A DNA stretch of 64,000 bases, taken from positions 3,186,697-3,250,696 of the forward strand of contig JABAKD010000011.1 in NCBI GenBank assembly GCA_012845835.1, in the 5' to 3' direction. This stretch comes from Undaria pinnatifida. Lineage: Eukaryota; Sar; Phaeophyceae; Laminariales; Alariaceae. The notes beneath the pieces were generated by a model. The model was not told where the DNA came from. It worked only from the letters and a program-made list of their open reading frames with translations, and made no database searches. Position numbers and translations under genes: made by a program. Below, one piece after another: positions 45,173 to 57,524 of this stretch; positions within the stretch are counted from its first letter, which is position 1; every line of letters starts with the position of its first letter.

Positions 45173-45180
45173 CACGCCAT
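45173..45180. repeat. 8-bp target site duplication, left
   Basis: CACGCCAT immediately before the TAGGG terminus; repeated exactly at 57517-57524. Confidence 0.85.
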
Positions 45181-45360
45181 TAGGGCCTTACCCAATAAGC
45201 TAGCATATCTTTTAGCATATATTGGCTTTTTGAGCTTATGGAAAAGCTTATGCCCGACCGAGCATAGCCACCATGCCAAATAGCTTATGTGGCAGCATAA
45301 CAAGGGAAATCGAGCATAAAAGGTGGTTATGCCCGCCTCCATTCCAGGTGTATATGCTCG
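45181..45360. repeat. left terminal and subterminal region
   Basis: Perfect TIR for 21 bp, then GAGCTTATGG, AAGCTTATGC, GAGCATAGCC, AGCTTATGTG, GAGCATAAAA and GGTTATGCCC words spaced 10-30 bp apart. Confidence 0.7.
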
Positions 45361-45629
45361 AATGGTTGTCTGGGAGCACGGTGGAGACGCCAAATGGGTG
45401 GCCGCACGGTAATAATGCAATTCACGAGGCTTAATTACACACTAGTGGTACTCCCGAAATATGCCAGTTGCCGGCCGGTATGGCGGACAAAAACAAATTG
45501 GTGCTGTATCCTCTGTATTAAGTACTATAAGAACAAAATAATAACAGGGCAGTACGACAATGCCGCCGTACGTTTGGTAGTAAAGGTATCATCCTCTGTA
45601 CGTAAGTTTTGCAAAACAAAAAAGATAAC

Positions 45630-46800
45630 ACGGCAGCAGCAGTAGTACGTACGGTAGTAAAGGACAGAGGAGTGCAGCAGTGGGGACGGTGGTACTCCCA
45701 AGCACCAGTGGGAGGCCGGTATTAAATTGTAGAAACAAAAAAAAGGGTTCATCTCCCACAGGACGCAAAAAGACTCCCACGTACAGAACGGCCCACCCAC
45801 CCACCACGGACGACGCAATGCACCCTCCACCCACCCACCGACCAAACCTTTACTACATACAGCAGAACAGCAGTGCAGCAGTCCGTACATCAGAACACCC
45901 GTGCAGCAGTACGTACAGCAGTATACACCTGGTACGCGGGGCGCAGTTGGTTGGTTGGTTCTTATGAAACAGGAAACGGCAAAAAAAAGACTCCCACGTA
46001 CAGAACGGTCCACCCACTCACCACGGACGACGCAGTGCACCCTCCACCCACCCACCGACCAAACCTTTACTACATACAGCAGAACAGCAGTGCAGCAGTA
46101 CGTACAGCACAGCAGAACAGCAGTGCAGCAGTAGGTACATCAGAACAGCTGTGCAGCCCTCCACCCACCCACCGACCAAACCTTTACTACATACAGCAGA
46201 ACAGCAGTGCAGCAGTCCGTACATCAGAACACCCGTGCAGCAGTACGTACAGCAGTATACACCTGGTACGCGGGGCGCAGTTGGTTGGTTGGTTCTTATG
46301 AAACAGGAAACAGCAAAAAAAAGACTCCCACGTACAGAACGGTCCACCCACTCACCACGGACGACGCAGTGCACCCTCCACCCACCCACCGACCAAACCT
46401 TTACTACATACAGCAGAACAGCAGTGCAGCAGTACGTACAGCACAGCAGAACAGCAGTGCAGCAGTCCGTACATCAGAACAGCTGTGCAGCAGTACATAC
46501 AGCAGTATACACCTGGTACGCGGGGCGCAGTTAGTTGGTTGGTTCTTATGAAACAGGAAACAGCAAAAAAAAGACTCCCACGTACAGAACGGCCCACCCA
46601 CCCACCACGGACGACGCAGTGCACGCTTCATCCATCCACCCACCAAACCTTTACTACATACAGCAGAACAGCAGTGCAGCAGTACGTACATCAGAACAGC
46701 AGTGCAGCGCAGTACGTGCAGCACAGCAGAACACCACCCACCATGCACCCACGAACCTACCCAGTACAGCAGTGCAGCAATGCAGCAGTACCTAGAGCAA
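45630..46800. repeat. variable-length tandem array inside the element
   Basis: Four copies of a 220-330 bp unit starting around AAAGACTCCCACGTACAGAA (about 45769, 45987, 46319, 46569), containing CCACGGACGACGCA, CCGACCAAACCTTTACTACA and stretches of CAGCAGAACAGCAGTGCAGC. Length differences come from the number of internal CAGCAGT words. All open frames here are repeat artefacts. Confidence 0.8.
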
Positions 46801-47540
46801 TACACCTGACAGGCGAGCAGCAGCCGATTGGTTGGTTACAATGCTCTCGGGCTGGTTAGGCCAAGCCAAAAGCTCTCGCTTTGCTAATTCTGCGCACGGC
46901 GAGCGGCGACGGCTGGACGCTGCTGTGTTTGGTCCTGGTGTTGTGTGATTGCTGTTCACGCAGACGCGCTTGTGGTCTCGTGTCCATGGCTGTGTCCATG
47001 GCCCAAGTGAAAATAATTAGCAGGCAGAAGGAAATAACTCGAGTAGCATTTGTTGTTCAACATTTATTTTTAGTCTTCCTCACAATATAGTTGGGAGTTC
47101 GAAAAAAAAAAAAAATTAGCAGGCAGCGACGAAGAAAAAGCGGGGGAGGGCAAGCGAGCCGTCCCCGGGAGGGCGATTTCCACGCTCCCCCCTCGCCGAG
47201 GTGGGGCACCGACGGCCGTTCTTTCGCCGGCATGTCGTAGTGCTGCTGTGCGGATGGGACGTGGCGGCACCGCGAGGCCGCCTGAGGCCGAGTGGAGCTC
47301 GGGAGTCGCCGCTTTTGGGGGGGGAGTGTTTTAAGCAAGATATTTTTCAAAGATCCAAAACGTCACGACCATCCTTAGCGTATTAATTAATAAGGATACA
47401 AGGGTGTCCGGACGTGGGGGGCCTGTCGGCCCCCCCGTCCTCCGGGTTACTGTTTACTGTAAAAGATGTGCGGTGATGCTGGTTGGTTCCACAGCAGGAG
47501 TACGCCTGCATACCAAGGGTGGGAGTGTTGAGTGTGGAAT
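46801..47540. other. spacer inside the element, no supported gene
   Basis: A GC-rich stretch at 47100-47330 beside an A-run; short frames on both strands but nothing recognisable. Confidence 0.4.
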
Positions 47541-48345
47541 GACAGCGGGCCGAGAAGGAGGAAAAGGAAATACTCCGTATGTATGATTTGTTGATGGGGC
47601 GTGATCCCCAGAAGAAACTGAAAATACAGCGGGCCGAAATGGAGGAAAAGGAAATACTACTCGGTATGTATTATTTGTTGATGGGGCGTGATCCCCAGAA
47701 CAAACTGAAAATAAGGACGCAGTGGAATATGGAATATGTCCAAAAATAAAGACACCCTCTTTCAGACGATATGGCTATGAAGAGGTTGGCGCAAACTGGG
47801 CACTGAAAAACTAAGACTTGGTACTGCAATCATGAAGACTCTGTGACCAAATGCGACGTGGCCACTAATACCGGCAATCATGTACAGTATGGCAGCGAAA
47901 AACGGATGTGACTACTTACAAAATGGGGACAGGGTAGCCAGATGCATTGCAACTCGAACTCTTCACCCACTCAAAGACGTTCGCATAACAGACATGGCTA
48001 TGAAGAGGTTGGCGCAAACTCGGCACCGCAAAAATGAAGACTCCCTACTTACAATTTGATGCTACGAAAGCTGAGACTACATACTTGGCTGACACCGGGA
48101 AAAAACAGACAGTATGCCGGGGTAGCCAGATGCATTGCAACTCGAACTCTTCACCCACTCAAAGACGTTCGCATAACAGACATGGCTATGAAGAGGTTGG
48201 CGCAAACTCGGCACCGCAAAAATGAAGACTCCCTACTTACAATTTGATGCTACGAAAGCTGAGACTACATACTTGGCTGACAACGGGAAAAAACAGACAG
48301 TATGCCGGCGCGGCGCACGCGCAAACTCGGCACTGAAAAAATGAA
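47541..48345. repeat. two tandem duplications near the Helitron 3' side
   Basis: An ~85-bp unit (ACAGCGGGCCGA, GATTTGTTGATGGGGCGTGA) is present twice at 47541-47712. A ~187-bp unit (GGTAGCCAGATGCATTGCAA, CATGGCTATGAAGAGGTTGG, ACTACATACTTGGCTGACA) is present twice at about 47932-48118 and 48119-48305. Confidence 0.75.
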
Positions 48346-48554
48346 GACTCACTATTTAGGGTTAGACAAAATGCCACGGTGGCCGCTAATATGTACTCGC
48401 CGGCTACCATGTACAGAATGGCTGAAAAAATGAAGACTTACTACTGACAATGCCGCGGGAAATAATTAGCACGAGACTGAGCGTGTCCGCGGCTACTGAC
48501 ATATATACACGAAATATACACCTGGCCCCACGAGTAACTTGGGGTCGACAGTTA

Positions 48555-48794
48555 TCATGGACGGCTACATTGGCACATTTTGATGTGCCACTGGAAGGAC
48601 GTTGAGTAGTAGTCTTGAAGTTCCGCTTCGAAGTTGGCATCATCTTCGACTTGCTGCCGGGTGTCGCCGGTGGCCTCTTGCTCTGCGTCCGCAATGAGGG
48701 AGCGCTCGAAGTGTGGGTCGAAGAAGTGGTGAAGGTCGTCAGGGACGATCATAGAGGCGAACCACCGGCGCTGGCGCGTTGGCGGCGCGGTCAT
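48555..48794 (-). CDS. small acidic ORF overlapping the Helitron stop
   Basis: 79 residues. Its ATG overlaps the Helitron TGA as ATGA (48791-48794), a coupling typical of termination-reinitiation. The text DDLHHFFDPHFERSLIADAE and later QVEDDANFEAELQDYYSTSF looks like genuine acidic helical protein rather than noise. No family is recognised. It could be an accessory protein of the element, or the frameshifted tail of a formerly longer Helitron protein. Confidence 0.45.
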   Translation of the reverse strand: MTAPPTRQRRWFASMIVPDDLHHFFDPHFERSLIADAEQEATGDTRQQVEDDANFEAELQDYYSTSFQWHIKMCQCSRP

Positions 48795-51700
48795 GCTGCG
48801 ACAGGCGGATGGTCGGTGGAAGGGTTATTTAGGATTAGGGAAGAGTAATGACGTGATTGTGGTTGATAGTGCAGGTGTATGGTAGAAGGGTCGGCGTTTT
48901 GAGGATTTGGTCGGGGGTTGTTTCCGATAGTAACGTTTATGGGTATGTTGTATCGTTGCATGCATGCGTAAATTTCTGGCTCACCAAGGTAAGCTCGCGG
49001 GTGAGACATGATGGAGAGGTAGTTGTCATATGATGTATACTGTTGTGGCGGTTCACCAAGGGCTTGGAGTAGTTCATGGTTCATGCCAGCGGAAATGGCG
49101 TTTAGCAAGTTAGGGTCGTTGCGGTTTTCGTTCATGTATTGGAGTATTTCCGAGCGTACTTGGTAGTGTCTGTTTGGGTCGTTGTATATTCGTCGTGCTA
49201 TGCCGCGAAATCCGCATGCTCCATCCCCAATTTCGTCGACGACTGTCCATGTTGGAGGTGGAGTTTGGCTGTCACTTGACGGTTGAGAGGAGGCATTGGA
49301 GGGCGCAGGAGGCGAGGTGTTTGGAGGTTGATACGGTGGAGGTGTTACAGCTTGGCCTGTGGCGGCAGCGGTGAAAGGAGGGTATACAATGTTCTCCGTG
49401 TGTGGAATGCCGTCAACAATATGTTCTTGTGGTAAAAGGCACATAATTGACTGGCGATTTTGCGCACGGCTGAGCGCGACGTAAAGTTGACCATGCCCAA
49501 ACGCAGGTGATCTCAAGTCCAAGCCAATTTTTGTAAGTGTCTGTCCCTGTGAACGATTCACCGTGACGGAATATGAAGTTCGGATGGGAAACTGTGTTCG
49601 CATGAACGTGATGCCATTTCTTCCAACTGTCGCACGAAAGCCTATACGTGGAATCAAAACAATTGGATGGGGCGATGTTTCGGTGAGAAGTTCGACTTGA
49701 AGGACTCGGCTGTTTGGGGAAACTGCGAGGACAACGCATTTTTGACCGTTGATGAGTCCCTCCGAAAAGTTGAGATTTCGCACGATCATCGCAAGTCCGT
49801 CTGACTTGAGGCAAAGCTCATGGGGAGGGACACCTTGCACGTTTAATTGGTGGAGGTGTTCAGGAGAAGCAAAGGCTGTGTGAGGCGTGGTCTCATCACT
49901 TATTAGTGTATCTGAGCTGAGGTATGTACAGTACTCTCCGGGCCGCAAGTCCGATATGGCTTCATTAGAACGGTCAATTGCGTTGTTGGTGGTCGCCAAT
50001 ATGGCGCGTTTGTCCCAGTTGCGCGATTGTTCATTGACATTGGGATACACAAAGTTCATGAGCTCATCGAAATTTGTTGTATATTTGAGCTGGAAGTGGT
50101 CATTGGCATCGAGGTTGTGGTTATTCAAGGCAATCATGTCCGTGCCGTCGATTGATTGTGTAGGGTGGGTACCCTCGCCTATCGCCCGCACAAAAGCAGC
50201 ATACTGAGGATCATCTTTGTCTCGTTGCGATTTGGTTAGTCTCATGCGTTTAACGTGTTTCCATAGGGGGCTAGAAATAAAGGCTGCGTCGACGGTATCG
50301 GTGGCGGTGCCGTTCTTAACTATTGGCCCTGTTTGGCGCCAATCTCCACTGAACAAAATAGTTTTTCCACCAAAAAGCTTATTGTTTTTCATCAGATCTT
50401 GAAGTGTTCTGTCGAGGGCCTCAATGCAATATCTGTGGGTCATAGGTAACTCGTCCCAAATGATGAGGTCCGCTTTGCGGATTAGCTCTGCTCTTTGAGT
50501 GTTGGTGTTTATGTTGCATACGCAGGTTGGCGACATTGCTTCGTCCATAGGTAATTTGAACATGGAGTGCGCGGTCCAGCCTCCAGGGAGCTGTAAGGCG
50601 GCGATGCCGGTGGAAGCAACGATGAGCACTGTCTTTCTTTCACCTCTCAACCTTGCGGAAATACATTTTTCTGTGTATGTCTTGCCAGTTCCGGCGGGCG
50701 CATCAATCATAAATGGACACCCATTATCGGCTCGAACTGAGTCTAAGACTGTTTTGTAAATGTGGCTCTGCTCACTGGTCAGTCGCGGTTCATGCAGCTC
50801 TGCGTATTCTGCACATGTTTGTGGGTCGAAGGCATCACGCATCCTTTCAAATTCAGTTCGCGGATGCATAGGCTTTGGAAGGTTGACTTGTTCGTTACAT
50901 TTACCATGCTGGTTTAGCTTGAGGTCTATTTCACACAAGGCAGCTTGTATGGCATCGTCTGTGGATAACCTAAGAAGGAAATCTTCGATGAGGTTGTCCT
51001 TAAAGTCACGCCATAGCTTCGGTGCTGGCGCACCATCTAAAATGAGCGTAACGAAAAGAGCACGGAGCTGGGACGCAACTTGAAACACTGAAGCTTCTTC
51101 CATACATAGTGAATACTCTTCGTCTCCCGTGATGAGACCTCTTGCTCTGGCGGCATCATGAAAAGTAGGGTGAACAACGGGATCGCCTGTGTCTGTTTGC
51201 ACTGTTCGTAATTCTGCGAACGACCTGGCTGGAATCGTGTGTAGTAACAACCTCAAGTAGTAGAGATCTCCCACCGCTGGACTCTGAAACGAAATTCGGC
51301 AAACGTGATCGTCGTTTTTTCGTTTGGAAACGATGTTTTTGTATCCATCGAGGTATTTGCCAAGCGGAGCAAACTCAAGCGGAGGGTCATCTTTTTTGGG
51401 CGAGGTGATAGTGTATTGCTCGTAATAGTCTAGAATGGTCAAGTCCGAAAAGCAGGGATTTTCCGGTCGCATGTAGTACCTGAGCACGTGTGTCTGTGAC
51501 TGCGCGGCTATCTCAAGTCTATCATCGTGGGTGGCATTTTTGGGATAAGTGATTTGTTGCTCTCCTTCAAGATGGGCGTGAATCTTAGTTACCGCAGGGT
51601 ATCTGTCCACCATATGGTAACCTAATAGTCTCCACGTCGCCTCTGCGGCTGAAATATACCTCGTTTTTCTATATTGTTCAACTTCTGAGGTAATGCCCTG

Positions 51701-53926
51701 TATCCTTGCTCGAATAAACGCGTCCCCTTTGTGACAATATTTGAACACGTATTTAACGCATGATGTTGCGGTGACGACATCAACACAAATGTGGCAGTCA
51801 AACATCATGAGCAACATGGGGTTGTACGGCACCACCCACTCGTTTCCTATCCTAACACTTTTCCATTGGTTGTTTACTCTCATTCTTATGGTCGGGTTGT
51901 CACCGTTCTTCCTCCGAGTATATTCTGCCCGTCCAGTTTTGTCGTTGACGGTTGCAATGCTTCTGAATGGTTGCGGAAAGTACTTGTTACAACACTTTTT
52001 GTTCGTGTGACGGTTTACTTGCATGCATGGAGCACTCATGTTTCCAACTGCCCCACACGGCTTGTGTATCATGTATTTGAGTACCTTTTCACGTAGTTTT
52101 CCTCCTGCTATGTTTTCGTCAGGCAGCTGAGCCCACACCCATTTGTCCATTTCGTTTAGGGCATCAGGGCCTGCATTTTTGAAGGTCATGAGAATGTGAG
52201 CGTGAGGGTACCCCCTCTTTTGGAATTCCGTCACCGCTAAATGGCTGTCGTAAGCGCCAAAAATTTTGCCAGACTTTAAAACCTTCATAATTTCTTTCAT
52301 CTTCAATTTGAAAACACGACAACATAGATCAGGACGATCATAAGCACTTTGTCCTGGCAGCAAATTTTCTTGCACCTCTTTCCAATCCGCATTGAAAGTT
52401 ACGGTGATGAACAAATGCGGTCTTCCTCGCCTGTTCACGATGCATAGAGCGTCTTCTGTATCACTTTTACGCTTGGCAGGTGAGCCAGGGTGAGAAGCAG
52501 GAAGCAATTTACCGGGTTGTTCATGAGGTTGGGCGTCTTGAATGGACCGGTTGGAAGCAAGCCTATGCTGCATGTCACTATTTTCGACGAAATTCAAACG
52601 CTCTTCTTCCATTCTGCTCAAAGAATCACAGACCCATTCCTGAGCGATTCGGCAGTTAATCTTAAATATCGGCTCCGAAAGAATACGCTGCCTACAGTAG
52701 AAGGGAAACGTTACGGCTTCGGTGTTTGACCGGTTCATTGTTTTAGATTTGAACGGCGGGTTCTCTTTGTAGTTACCCTTACTCCAACCTGCTTCTCCAT
52801 GCAAAAACAGCAGGGGGAACTGTAGCGTTTCATATGCAGAGCTCCAAAGCGGCAGGAAGCGTGGTTTGTTATCTGGGCTGTTCCTTGGATAGGTGATAAC
52901 TGCTCGCGGCGCATCATTTTGATTCCCTGAGGTAAACACTAAAGCTGCTATTTCATTTGCACTCGGATTCTCGCCCAACACTGGTCCATCATTAACTCTG
53001 CTAACTTCACTGAACTCTATAAAAGGCGCACTGGACTCTGACGCTGATGTGTTTAATATTGTGTCTACGGCAGACCTGTATTCTCGAGCCCACCTAATCT
53101 CGCTGTTCACGTGGGATCTTAGAGTGCCTGCAATCCGTGAATCTAAATGTTGTGAGGAGGTTGTCTGTGCGAATTCGGAATCGAATATGTAAAACCTGGC
53201 ACTGTTGTTAACATTTTGGTTTTGATACTTCTCCTGTAAGTCGAAAATTCTATGGTATGCTTTACCATGGAGAGTAAGCATTGTCGGTGGTTTTCCTTGA
53301 GTCCACGATCGGTTTTCTATGCCTCCTGCTCCCAAAGCTGTGAAACTAAATAACCCGTTATATGCCCTTTGTGATTCGCGAAAACGTGCGGTTTGGAAGA
53401 GCGATAACAATGTTTGTGGAATAGGTTTAAGCCGGTGAATGGCAGATCTCCCACGGTTACAACAGTTATAGGACCCAGACCGTTCCTCTTTCCATAGCAC
53501 AGACCCACAGTGTTGGCACGTATAGTTACTTTCATGTAGCAAGCACGGGTATTTTAGTTCGTACGCCTCAAGTGGATACTCAAAGTTGGTGGAATTAAAG
53601 GCTTGCACACCAAGTCTTTCTTCTGAACCTTCCATGGAATTGGCAGCGGCAACGTCTCTAGGGTCGGGTCTTCGAGGGATGCGGTTTCTCATTCGATTAA
53701 AATGTTGAACAACGACGTCAGTCTCTGATTCAGAATCGCTGTCCAGGTTGTTACTGCGGAGATCACGTTCCATGTTATTAGTGTTCTGCGTTCGAGTTTC
53801 GTTTTGAAGGGTACGTCGTGAGCGCCGCCCCGCTAAAATGCACGCGCGCCTACGCCTGCGCTCGCGGGCAATTTCAGCACGACGGGTATTTCGTTGCGAG
53901 CGAGTACATCGCTGATCGGTTGACAT
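48791..53926 (-). CDS. Helitron-like Rep/helicase with C-terminal OTU protease domain
   Basis: Intact 1711-residue ORF, the rolling-circle transposase of Helitron-type DNA transposons. The basic N-terminus is followed by a Cys cluster (C137, C140, C155, C156; YTCQHCG), a presumed zinc knuckle. The HUH Rep domain shows HLFITVTF (about 504-511), GYPHAHILM with the two catalytic histidines (about 575 and 577) and VKYVFKYCHK with paired tyrosines Y726 and Y730. A PIF1-like SF1B helicase follows: Walker A APAGTGKT (1076-1083), Walker B IIWDE (D1158/E1159), GDWRQTGP (1195-1201) and VNRSQGQTLTK ... LYVALSRAQN (1457-1490). The C-terminus (about 1560-1700) is OTU-like, with DGACGF (D1568, C1571) and a candidate catalytic His in SRHYSSL (H1693). 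OTU domains are known mainly from the Helentron/Helitron2 branch. The absence of stops or frameshifts suggests recent activity. The first ATG is used; a later start is not needed. Confidence 0.93.
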   Translation of the reverse strand: MSTDQRCTRSQRNTRRAEIARERRRRRACILAGRRSRRTLQNETRTQNTNNMERDLRSNNLDSDSESETDVVVQHFNRMRNRIPRRPDPRDVAAANSMEGSEERLGVQAFNSTNFEYPLEAYELKYPCLLHESNYTCQHCGSVLWKEERSGSYNCCNRGRSAIHRLKPIPQTLLSLFQTARFRESQRAYNGLFSFTALGAGGIENRSWTQGKPPTMLTLHGKAYHRIFDLQEKYQNQNVNNSARFYIFDSEFAQTTSSQHLDSRIAGTLRSHVNSEIRWAREYRSAVDTILNTSASESSAPFIEFSEVSRVNDGPVLGENPSANEIAALVFTSGNQNDAPRAVITYPRNSPDNKPRFLPLWSSAYETLQFPLLFLHGEAGWSKGNYKENPPFKSKTMNRSNTEAVTFPFYCRQRILSEPIFKINCRIAQEWVCDSLSRMEEERLNFVENSDMQHRLASNRSIQDAQPHEQPGKLLPASHPGSPAKRKSDTEDALCIVNRRGRPHLFITVTFNADWKEVQENLLPGQSAYDRPDLCCRVFKLKMKEIMKVLKSGKIFGAYDSHLAVTEFQKRGYPHAHILMTFKNAGPDALNEMDKWVWAQLPDENIAGGKLREKVLKYMIHKPCGAVGNMSAPCMQVNRHTNKKCCNKYFPQPFRSIATVNDKTGRAEYTRRKNGDNPTIRMRVNNQWKSVRIGNEWVVPYNPMLLMMFDCHICVDVVTATSCVKYVFKYCHKGDAFIRARIQGITSEVEQYRKTRYISAAEATWRLLGYHMVDRYPAVTKIHAHLEGEQQITYPKNATHDDRLEIAAQSQTHVLRYYMRPENPCFSDLTILDYYEQYTITSPKKDDPPLEFAPLGKYLDGYKNIVSKRKNDDHVCRISFQSPAVGDLYYLRLLLHTIPARSFAELRTVQTDTGDPVVHPTFHDAARARGLITGDEEYSLCMEEASVFQVASQLRALFVTLILDGAPAPKLWRDFKDNLIEDFLLRLSTDDAIQAALCEIDLKLNQHGKCNEQVNLPKPMHPRTEFERMRDAFDPQTCAEYAELHEPRLTSEQSHIYKTVLDSVRADNGCPFMIDAPAGTGKTYTEKCISARLRGERKTVLIVASTGIAALQLPGGWTAHSMFKLPMDEAMSPTCVCNINTNTQRAELIRKADLIIWDELPMTHRYCIEALDRTLQDLMKNNKLFGGKTILFSGDWRQTGPIVKNGTATDTVDAAFISSPLWKHVKRMRLTKSQRDKDDPQYAAFVRAIGEGTHPTQSIDGTDMIALNNHNLDANDHFQLKYTTNFDELMNFVYPNVNEQSRNWDKRAILATTNNAIDRSNEAISDLRPGEYCTYLSSDTLISDETTPHTAFASPEHLHQLNVQGVPPHELCLKSDGLAMIVRNLNFSEGLINGQKCVVLAVSPNSRVLQVELLTETSPHPIVLIPRIGFRATVGRNGITFMRTQFPIRTSYSVTVNRSQGQTLTKIGLDLRSPAFGHGQLYVALSRAQNRQSIMCLLPQEHIVDGIPHTENIVYPPFTAAATGQAVTPPPYQPPNTSPPAPSNASSQPSSDSQTPPPTWTVVDEIGDGACGFRGIARRIYNDPNRHYQVRSEILQYMNENRNDPNLLNAISAGMNHELLQALGEPPQQYTSYDNYLSIMSHPRAYLGEPEIYACMQRYNIPINVTIGNNPRPNPQNADPSTIHLHYQPQSRHYSSLILNNPSTDHPPVAA

Positions 53927-54003
53927 GGAAGGTTAAAGTTTCAAGTTCGCGTTCAGATAAAAGGTTTAGGGGAGCGCTTTGCCCGGTTGATCTTGAGCTC
54001 ACC

Positions 54004-55993
<1,990 letters not shown>

Positions 55994-57290
55994 GTCTACT
56001 GCGAGGGGAGCGGCTGCTGTGTTGAATTGTGTGCGTGTGCGCGTGTTCGCGTCGGGCGGGTGTGCTGAGGCGACTAAAACGAAGTTTGGTCGAAGTTTTG
56101 GTAAAGATCCAGAACCCACAGCAGCAGCAGCTACACCCCAGCTTCGTTGAGCGGCATCGTTGAGGTTGCGCTTGCTCTCGTTACCCGCGATCGACCTACT
56201 ACGTGAAAGCTGCGCGTGCAACAAACCTCACCAGAGGTGAAATAGACGGTATACGTTCGGCTTTGGAGGGTGTGCGTGCCCATCCCCTCTCTGTGCTGAC
56301 AACACACAACCTCAACGCCAATACTCCGCAAAACGGGACTGTCACTTTTTTGCGATCGGAAGCAAATGAAAGTGCAGGTTTGCTGCCGAAAGACGAAAGA
56401 CGTCGGTTCTGCGGGGTTCGGCGCGCTTTTCACGACGCTGATTCCAACCCAGCAGGGACAATCGAGACCGCACGCAACGAGCCATTCTGTTCGCTAGGCC
56501 ACCAGGTGCCGCATTGCGAAGGCGCGAGCCTGGCCGTGCGTCTGGGAGCGCGCTATGAGGGCGCGAAGTTAACGTACTGTTTTCAGAGGGGGTCGAATTT
56601 CCCCGCTGCGCTGTGAGCGACCCAGTCCTGAAGATCCCGATTCCCGTAATATTAGTTACCTCTATTGTCGGCTCTGTTTATCGCGATATTGGACGGTTCT
56701 ACATATTATGTAGAACACTTAAACACGCACACACACGCGCGCGCGCCCACGCGCCCACGCGAGCACAAAAAAGCGGAGAGCGCACGGGACGCTGCCGATC
56801 TTCCGATCTTCCGATCTTGCAGTGATGGCAACCGCTCTTCTCAAGTACAAGAGGGGGCGGGGAAGGTAGCATTGCGTCGTGCGGGGTGCGGGGGTACTGG
56901 GTAGTCGGCTGTGTTTGGCTAGCTCGCTAGCTCTGTTTTTTTTTGCTGTCGAGTTTCGAGTAGAGAGTTCAAGCAAGTTTTCCAATTGACATGGTGGGCA
57001 GGTCATGGTGGGCGGTGGTATGGAAAAGACAGCAAGGCACTGACTGCTGTGCGCACTGTGCTGTATATGGACACAACACAATAACACACGACAACATCAA
57101 TCAGTAGTAGTAGTATGATATACGTAAACATACGAGTATACACTTTCGAAGTATATAGGAACATAGATTATTATGTATAGACTATACGAATCGTATAGTC
57201 TATATTTTTACTTTTTCAGCACTGACACACCTGCACCTGCCATGTGGCTTGTAGAAAAAGAAACAAATAGCCTTAGAACCCACGTTTCAC
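55994..57290. other. element DNA upstream of the Cys-rich gene
   Basis: Should contain the promoter of the Cys-rich gene (minus strand). A 137-codon plus-strand frame at 56203-56616 has no recognisable features. A CACACGCGCGCGC run lies near 56730 and an A/T-rich palindrome at 57176. Confidence 0.4.
57176..57204. repeat. 29-bp perfect palindrome
   Basis: TATAGACTATACGA and its exact reverse complement separated by a single A; it could form a 14-bp hairpin. Located ~310 bp inside the right end of the 12-kb element. Confidence 0.8.
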
Positions 57291-57516
57291 GAGCATATCG
57301 ACGACAAGCAGGGATGCCCAACGAGTGTTAGACGAGCAAACACGCTTTTATCGAACAAAAATCAAGCTAGAGATGCAACAAAGAGCGAGCATAGGTCGAG
57401 CTTATCCGTGCAAAACTGGCATAAATCGCGAGCTTATTTCCAGTTTTTAAGCTTATGCCCGCTAAAAACAAAAAGCATATATTCCGAAAAAAAAAAGCTT
57501 ATTGGGTAAGGCCCTA
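57290..57516. repeat. right terminal and subterminal region
   Basis: Words GAGCATAGG, GAGCTTATCC, GGCATAAATC, GAGCTTATTT, AAGCTTATGC and AAGCATATAT mirror the left side, ending in the inverted terminal repeat. Confidence 0.7.
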
Positions 57517-57524
57517 CACGCCAT
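57517..57524. repeat. 8-bp target site duplication, right
   Basis: CACGCCAT directly after the right terminus. Confidence 0.85.

Follow-up and report, generated by a model that had tools for sequence, protein, structure and literature searches.

Features of the locus

The window discussed here is the whole stretch of 64,000 nucleotides that was analysed from the genome of Undaria pinnatifida (C13:3186697-3250696). Within it, two terminal inverted repeats (TIRs, TAGGGCCTTACCCAATAAGCT) that match at 21 of 21 positions enclose 12,336 bp, and the octamer CACGCCAT is perfectly duplicated directly outside both (Table 1). By rough arithmetic, chance does not account for an inverted repeat of 21 bp that is bordered, within 64 kb of sequence, by an 8-bp duplication. 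When exact inverted pairs of 12-mers were sought that lie less than 25 kb apart and are flanked by a duplication of at least 5 bp, three were found in the window; one of these, the outer pair, has a duplication of 8 bp.

An earlier note on this DNA had drawn attention to the termini and the duplication around 12.3 kb, and to a Rep/helicase as the only transposition protein inside them. Both observations hold, the Rep/helicase being the sole such protein that Pfam recognises in the three open reading frames scanned. The note had also described subterminal words as mirrored at the two ends. Here, a correction is needed. The word AGCTTAT is direct, on the plus strand, at both ends (45233, 45245 and 45282; 57399, 57431 and 57450), and the sole inverted copy is the one within the TIR.

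Table 1. Positions of the elements and genes in the window
Feature	Position	Strand	Remarks
Left target duplication	45173..45180	.	8 bp, CACGCCAT
Left arm of TIR element	45181..45440	+	260 bp; non-autonomous, hAT-like; TIR 45181-45201
Small Helitron	45442..47396	-	1,955 bp; non-autonomous, canonical ends; minus strand 5'-TCCTTATTAATT...CCACTAG-3', between A and T
Coding Helitron	about 47397..56664	-	5' end A|TAGAGGTAAC; 3' end GC hairpin, then CCCTTGTA
Rep/PIF1 helicase/OTU protein	48791..53926	-	1,711 aa, uninterrupted
Cys-rich gene	54004..55993	-	apparently spliced; exon 1 55646-55993 (116 codons), last exon ends 54004
Right arm of TIR element	56666..57516	+	851 bp; TIR 57496-57516
Right target duplication	57517..57524	.	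8 bp, CACGCCAT

The larger protein joins, in one chain, a Rep domain (HUH, two-tyrosine) and a PIF1-like helicase, the combination that defines a Helitron. Pfam gives Helitron_like_N at 3.7e-38 and PIF1 at 9.2e-61, and Helraiser (7lcc) aligns with residues 124-1491 (E 4.9e-166). The Rep part contains, by eye, what we take to be the HUH and YRKTRY motifs. The C-terminus is OTU-like, with a weak match (2.2e-4, 1.1 bits below the Pfam cut-off); the AP endonuclease that marks a Helentron has no Pfam match there. A search of PHROGs returned helicases only, and viral contigs gave no relative of the protein.

Upstream of Rep, on the same strand and in the same Helitron, lies a Cys-rich gene, whose exon limits were judged by eye. 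For its protein, the PDB yielded nothing up to E 1, and Pfam nothing better than chance (E 0.12 for the open reading frame of the last exon). Between its first and last exons stands a pure AC repeat of 307 bp (54595-54901), which, in several further copies of the Helitron, varies or interrupts the alignment.

The outer element and its family

A search of the genome (511,146,479 bases in 68 contigs) found the 13-bp terminus at 197 places (92 + 105), against four (2 + 2) for a reversed control. Pairing drew on 173 of the 197 places and gave 53 opposed pairs, whose termini carry TAGGGCCTTACCC. Of these, 44 span 0.9-1.5 kb, with a median of about 1.12 kb; six exceed 2 kb, and the pair in the window is the largest. 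Twenty other pairs were fetched, and 8-bp duplications were perfect in 12, matched at 7 of 8 positions in four, and were worse in the remaining four. A short non-autonomous TIR family, present at high copy number, exists in the host genome.

The arms in the window belong with this short form. The left arm is 99.6% identical to the corresponding arm of one short copy (L010) and 100% identical to that of another (L020); for the right arm, the values are 98.2% and 96.8%. Joined, the two arms make 1,111 bp, which differ from L010 by eight mismatches in 1,107 aligned positions and nine gap columns, and from L020 by ten mismatches in 1,108 aligned positions and 18 gap columns. Judged by these alignments, the outer element of the window is the 1,111-bp short form, split by 11.2 kb.

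To which superfamily does it belong? An 8-bp duplication is what a hAT element would leave, and the window and most of the fetched pairs have it. A hAT-dimerisation domain was looked for inside the 53 pairs; among the 150 of 371 candidate matches that were scored, none lies there, and the closest is 15.7 kb from any TIR place seen. The outer element is therefore hAT-like by its duplication, but its assignment to the hAT superfamily is unproven, since the TIRs were seen to enclose no hAT transposase. Both hAT and KDZ elements are present in Ectocarpus according to the available text of a survey (PMC12477816), so that the outer element is no more than a putative hAT.

Other long copies of the TIR element also contain inserts. 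One 7.2-kb copy (L019, 1-7378), with the perfect duplication CCCCCAAA, holds a different insert of 6 kb. In this, one open reading frame resembles the Cys-rich exon weakly, at 32% over 82 residues (E 0.001), open reading frames recur every 930 bp, and a hairpin followed by CCCTTGTA stands at the end. Two more copies, L079 (428-3056) and L080 (425-3056), which were surveyed at the level of open reading frames, have in common an insert of 2.6 kb that lies in opposite orientation in the two and is 97.7% identical between them. It includes an OTU-like fragment (in L079, 38% over 125 residues, E 1.2e-19) and ends with CCTTGTA. Going by resemblance, these inserts seem to be related to the coding Helitron, and the other long copies look like nests as well.

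The common insert of L079 and L080 sits at a nearly identical point of the TIR element, beside an AT-rich palindrome (57176-57204 in the window); this might be an insertion hot spot.

Two Helitrons between the arms

The likeness of the window to its closest short copies stops at 45440-45443 and resumes from 56652; the junctions were placed exactly by means of the ends that belong to the insert itself. The short forms that were fetched run continuously through the insertion point. Their target reads ACACCCATTG; the window reads ACAC-A...T-TG, and the flanking TIR-element sequence thus rejoins to the short form except for two C's. These may have been lacking in the copy that served as target, or may have been lost at insertion.

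A single Helitron running from 45441 to 56665 was considered and rejected. Its ACTAGTGG end is absent at that spacing in eight of eight other coding copies. This missing end led to the reading in which the insert consists of two elements, meeting at the boundary 47396/47397.

At the 5' end of the coding Helitron, ACCTCTAT (56658-56665) recurs, with unrelated flanks, at all 19 other loci fetched; with the window, these are the best 20 of 49 matches. The base before the 5' end is A in 20 of 20. At its 3' end, the last 74 nucleotides are predicted to fold at -33.2 kcal/mol, the hairpin being followed by CCCTTGTA as the last bases. Among the 39 other 3'-end matches listed, 28 begin at 47396/47397 and 33 within 47392-47397. 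Six reach further, and the four of these that were fetched each have different flanks. The 3' end was read directly at the expected spacing in six of 12 coding copies, and in four of four in a set fetched later.

At one locus (L067), the 5' end of the coding Helitron has a related Helitron end just two bases away. Further, 17 of the 40 3'-end matches stop at query position 281. These seem to represent a second subtype of the coding Helitron with a different 3' part, about 1 kb longer in the three that were measured.

The ends of the coding Helitron, TAGAGG and CTTGTA, are not the 5'-TC and 3'-CTRR of Helitron1. Nor do its terminal 300-bp stretches have in common an exact inverted 9-mer of the kind that would suggest the inverted repeats of Helitron2 or Helentrons, a comparison in which shorter or imperfect repeats would pass unseen.

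The Rep protein has at least 27 full-length matches in the genome. All 27 that were scored are without stops and all are listed at 100% identity; the number is a lower bound, further frames of 1,713 codons being listed. Since at least 27 copies encode an uninterrupted and near-identical protein, the family is, to judge by these copies, very young, and the product of a very recent burst. This, with its clear ends, makes the family a good candidate for following Helitron activity in the host.

The second element is smaller. On the minus strand it runs A|TCCTTATT...CCACTAG|T, and it thus has the TC...CTRR ends between A and T that the Helitron1 rule prescribes. Its left end ACTAGTGGTACTCC (45441/45442) occurs at 29 other loci with unrelated flanks, and is exact in 27 of them (the loci fetched, window included, are the top 30 among 99 matches); its right end, AAGGA|T, is also seen beside different flanks. 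The predicted hairpin is weak, a stem of five pairs that stops some 21 nt short of the 3' end, where about 11 nt would be expected for Helitron1. By its ends, then, the element would be classed as a Helitron1, the hairpin being the weak point. Tandem repeats occupy 45819-46690.

Might the coding and small Helitrons transpose jointly? This was considered and rejected. None of 24 stretches downstream of other coding copies (15 copies, with the coding 3' end within the stretch in ten) contains the small Helitron, which must therefore be a separate insertion. At L036, L045 and L049, three loci among the 30 fetched for the left end, the flank resembles the 5' end of a second small Helitron, in an apparent head-to-tail joint. 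Insertion that abuts an earlier element is thus not unusual for this Helitron. Tandem Helitron insertions are mentioned in the available text of PMC5148889, which also reports joined Helitron ends in Fusarium.

The Cys-rich gene

Exon 1 of the Cys-rich gene recurs in the genome. Among 127 matches listed, it is 100% identical over 116 residues in 42, of which the window is one (150 of 498 candidates were scored). In the 20 fetched 5'-end loci, the exon is identical in 16, has one change in one, and is not whole in three.

Divergent relatives were also placed against Rep genes. Here, 49 matches of the gene's own family and one fragment of 22 residues (C25:5937329) were omitted, which left 77; the Rep set comprised 109 of 154 Helitron_like_N matches, the near-identical family and unlisted matches being left out. 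Eleven of the 77 lie within 9 kb of a Helitron_like_N match, and ten of these eleven share its strand and have Rep downstream of them. Two of these ten, on C19 and C29, have equal spacing and are probably one family. Random placement of Rep put a mean of 0.8 Cys-rich matches near any Rep, with a maximum of four in 500 trials, under a crude model of uniform positions up to the highest coordinate seen. The other 66 of the 77 have no listed Rep nearby.

In one region (C35:7916576-8046282), eight Cys-rich relatives follow one another on a single strand. The gap between neighbours is about 20 kb in six cases of seven, which gives the region the appearance of a tandem array of 20-kb units.

These data suggest that the gene is probably a conserved passenger or helper of the coding-Helitron lineage, with relatives that also occur where no Rep is recognised. 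In plant Helitrons, RPA is the gene supposed to have a helper role. A bolder proposal, which we put forward tentatively and at less than even odds, is that the coding Helitron represents a lineage that combines a non-canonical terminus (a strong hairpin and CTTGTA) with a conserved, possibly zinc-binding, Cys-rich protein encoded upstream of Rep, and that this protein takes part in transposition as a helper.

Origin of the composite

The simplest history of the locus requires no joint movement of its parts. It makes the locus a nest of three layers, with two independent Helitrons inside a short TIR element, and not one hybrid transposon; we give this reading a probability of about 0.96. Here, a short non-autonomous TIR element of about 1.1 kb, moved by a putative cut-and-paste transposase, would have landed first and created the CACGCCAT duplication. 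The coding Helitron would then have entered the left third of this element, at an A/T site, by rolling-circle transfer without a target duplication. The small Helitron would have entered at A|T, exactly where the 3' end of the coding Helitron meets the TIR element. The order proposed is that of the nesting, and the chemistry is that of the families; the identity of the three elements, their ends and independent copies of each are there to be seen in the genome.

Some observations run against this history. The base after CTTGTA varies from copy to copy, unlike a strict A|T target. In the six of 12 coding copies whose 3' end was not read at the expected spacing, three (on C28, C57 and C26) have that end about 1 kb further out by match coordinates, and in three it was not located. 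A search of the whole genome that allowed one mismatch did not find the sequence predicted for the site before insertion, which lacks the two C's. Finally, the earlier note had asked for an empty site with a single CACGCCAT. The assembly has none, the joined outer flanks matching only the two flanks of the window itself.

The earlier note had offered two accounts of its own. In one, a Helitron landed inside a non-autonomous hAT that later moved as a unit. Half of this survives, since a TIR element does hold a Helitron (two, in fact); movement as a unit gained no support. For such movement, the Helitron would have inserted into the TIR element at some other locus, from which the TIR element's transposase would have brought the 12.3-kb composite here. 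The perfect outer TIRs and 8-bp duplication are indeed ends that a transposase could use. However, a short element that inserts first accounts equally for an identical duplication. The note's request for other copies with these termini was answered by many short ones, including, as it had foreseen, the short form without a Helitron, but none of the 53 pairs (from 173 of the 197 terminus places) repeats the composite. Nor does the TIR element stand beside other Helitron ends that were fetched. When 50 loci with such ends were compared with the short element, each with about 1.5 kb of sequence to either side, it matched only the two in the window and none of the 48 others. The TIR place seen nearest to any other Rep frame is 24.9 kb away (22 of 26 measured; four are on contigs without a seen TIR place). 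We therefore regard movement of the whole as very improbable.

The note's other account, in which a TIR transposon gained the enzyme of a Helitron along with cargo and moves by both chemistries, has in its favour that the Rep/helicase is the sole transposition protein recognised inside. The Rep element, however, occurs in at least 27 coding copies, both of its ends recur with unrelated flanks, and the TIR flanks rejoin to the short form but for the two C's. Because the Helitron thus has independent ends, the account is refuted, and we would give it next to no weight. The same independent ends dispose of a rather different proposal, equally implausible to us, that the 12.3-kb form is an ancestral autonomous element from which the 1.1-kb forms derive by internal deletion. 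Ds is, of course, just such a derivative of Ac, and the likeness of the junctions, TTAATTAC and TTAGTTAC, could be deletion microhomology. Yet both junctions lie within a base of the ends of elements found elsewhere, other long copies hold different inserts at different positions, and no TIR-type transposase is recognised inside the 12.3-kb form. The claim of a transposon with two chemistries is thereby removed, for nesting explains the composite, and every layer is found separately in the genome. What keeps its value is the very young family of coding Helitrons, together with the Helitron-linked Cys-rich gene, which has relatives upstream of Rep in some divergent Helitrons.

Comparison with known elements

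The outer element resembles non-autonomous hAT elements in its 8-bp duplications, its short TIRs, its subterminal repeats and the existence of a short form without a known protein. It differs from them in that, among the matches scored, no hAT transposase was recognised between the TIRs of this family.

The coding Helitron resembles the canonical Helitron Helraiser in the Rep and PIF1-type helicase over the aligned residues, in the 3' hairpin, and in the A before the 5' end. It differs in that its 5' end has TA and not TC, in that its 3' end is CTTGTA and not CTRR, and in having a weak C-terminal OTU match and a second, Cys-rich gene. In the Rep motif GYPHAH, Y stands between G and P, where the available source text gives S for Helentrons and L for Helitrons.

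The proto-Helentron of Phytophthora infestans, as far as the available text of PMC4067079 describes it, is another relevant case. Like the coding Helitron, it has an intron-free Rep/helicase, comparable in size (there 1,783 aa), without a C-terminal endonuclease, and additional open reading frames. In contrast, its ends are 5'-TT and CTAG-3', and it has a SET-domain open reading frame and the Helentron Rep signature. Thus, the coding element is a Helitron by its protein, with ends that fit neither TC...CTRR nor Helitron2/Helentron as these are described in the text available from PMC4067079 and PMC5148889.

Nested elements are commonplace in repeat-rich genomes. The locus as a whole is like them in having elements within elements, each with its own ends, and it differs from them in nothing essential; in the window, the second insertion abuts the 3' end of the first element inserted into the TIR element.
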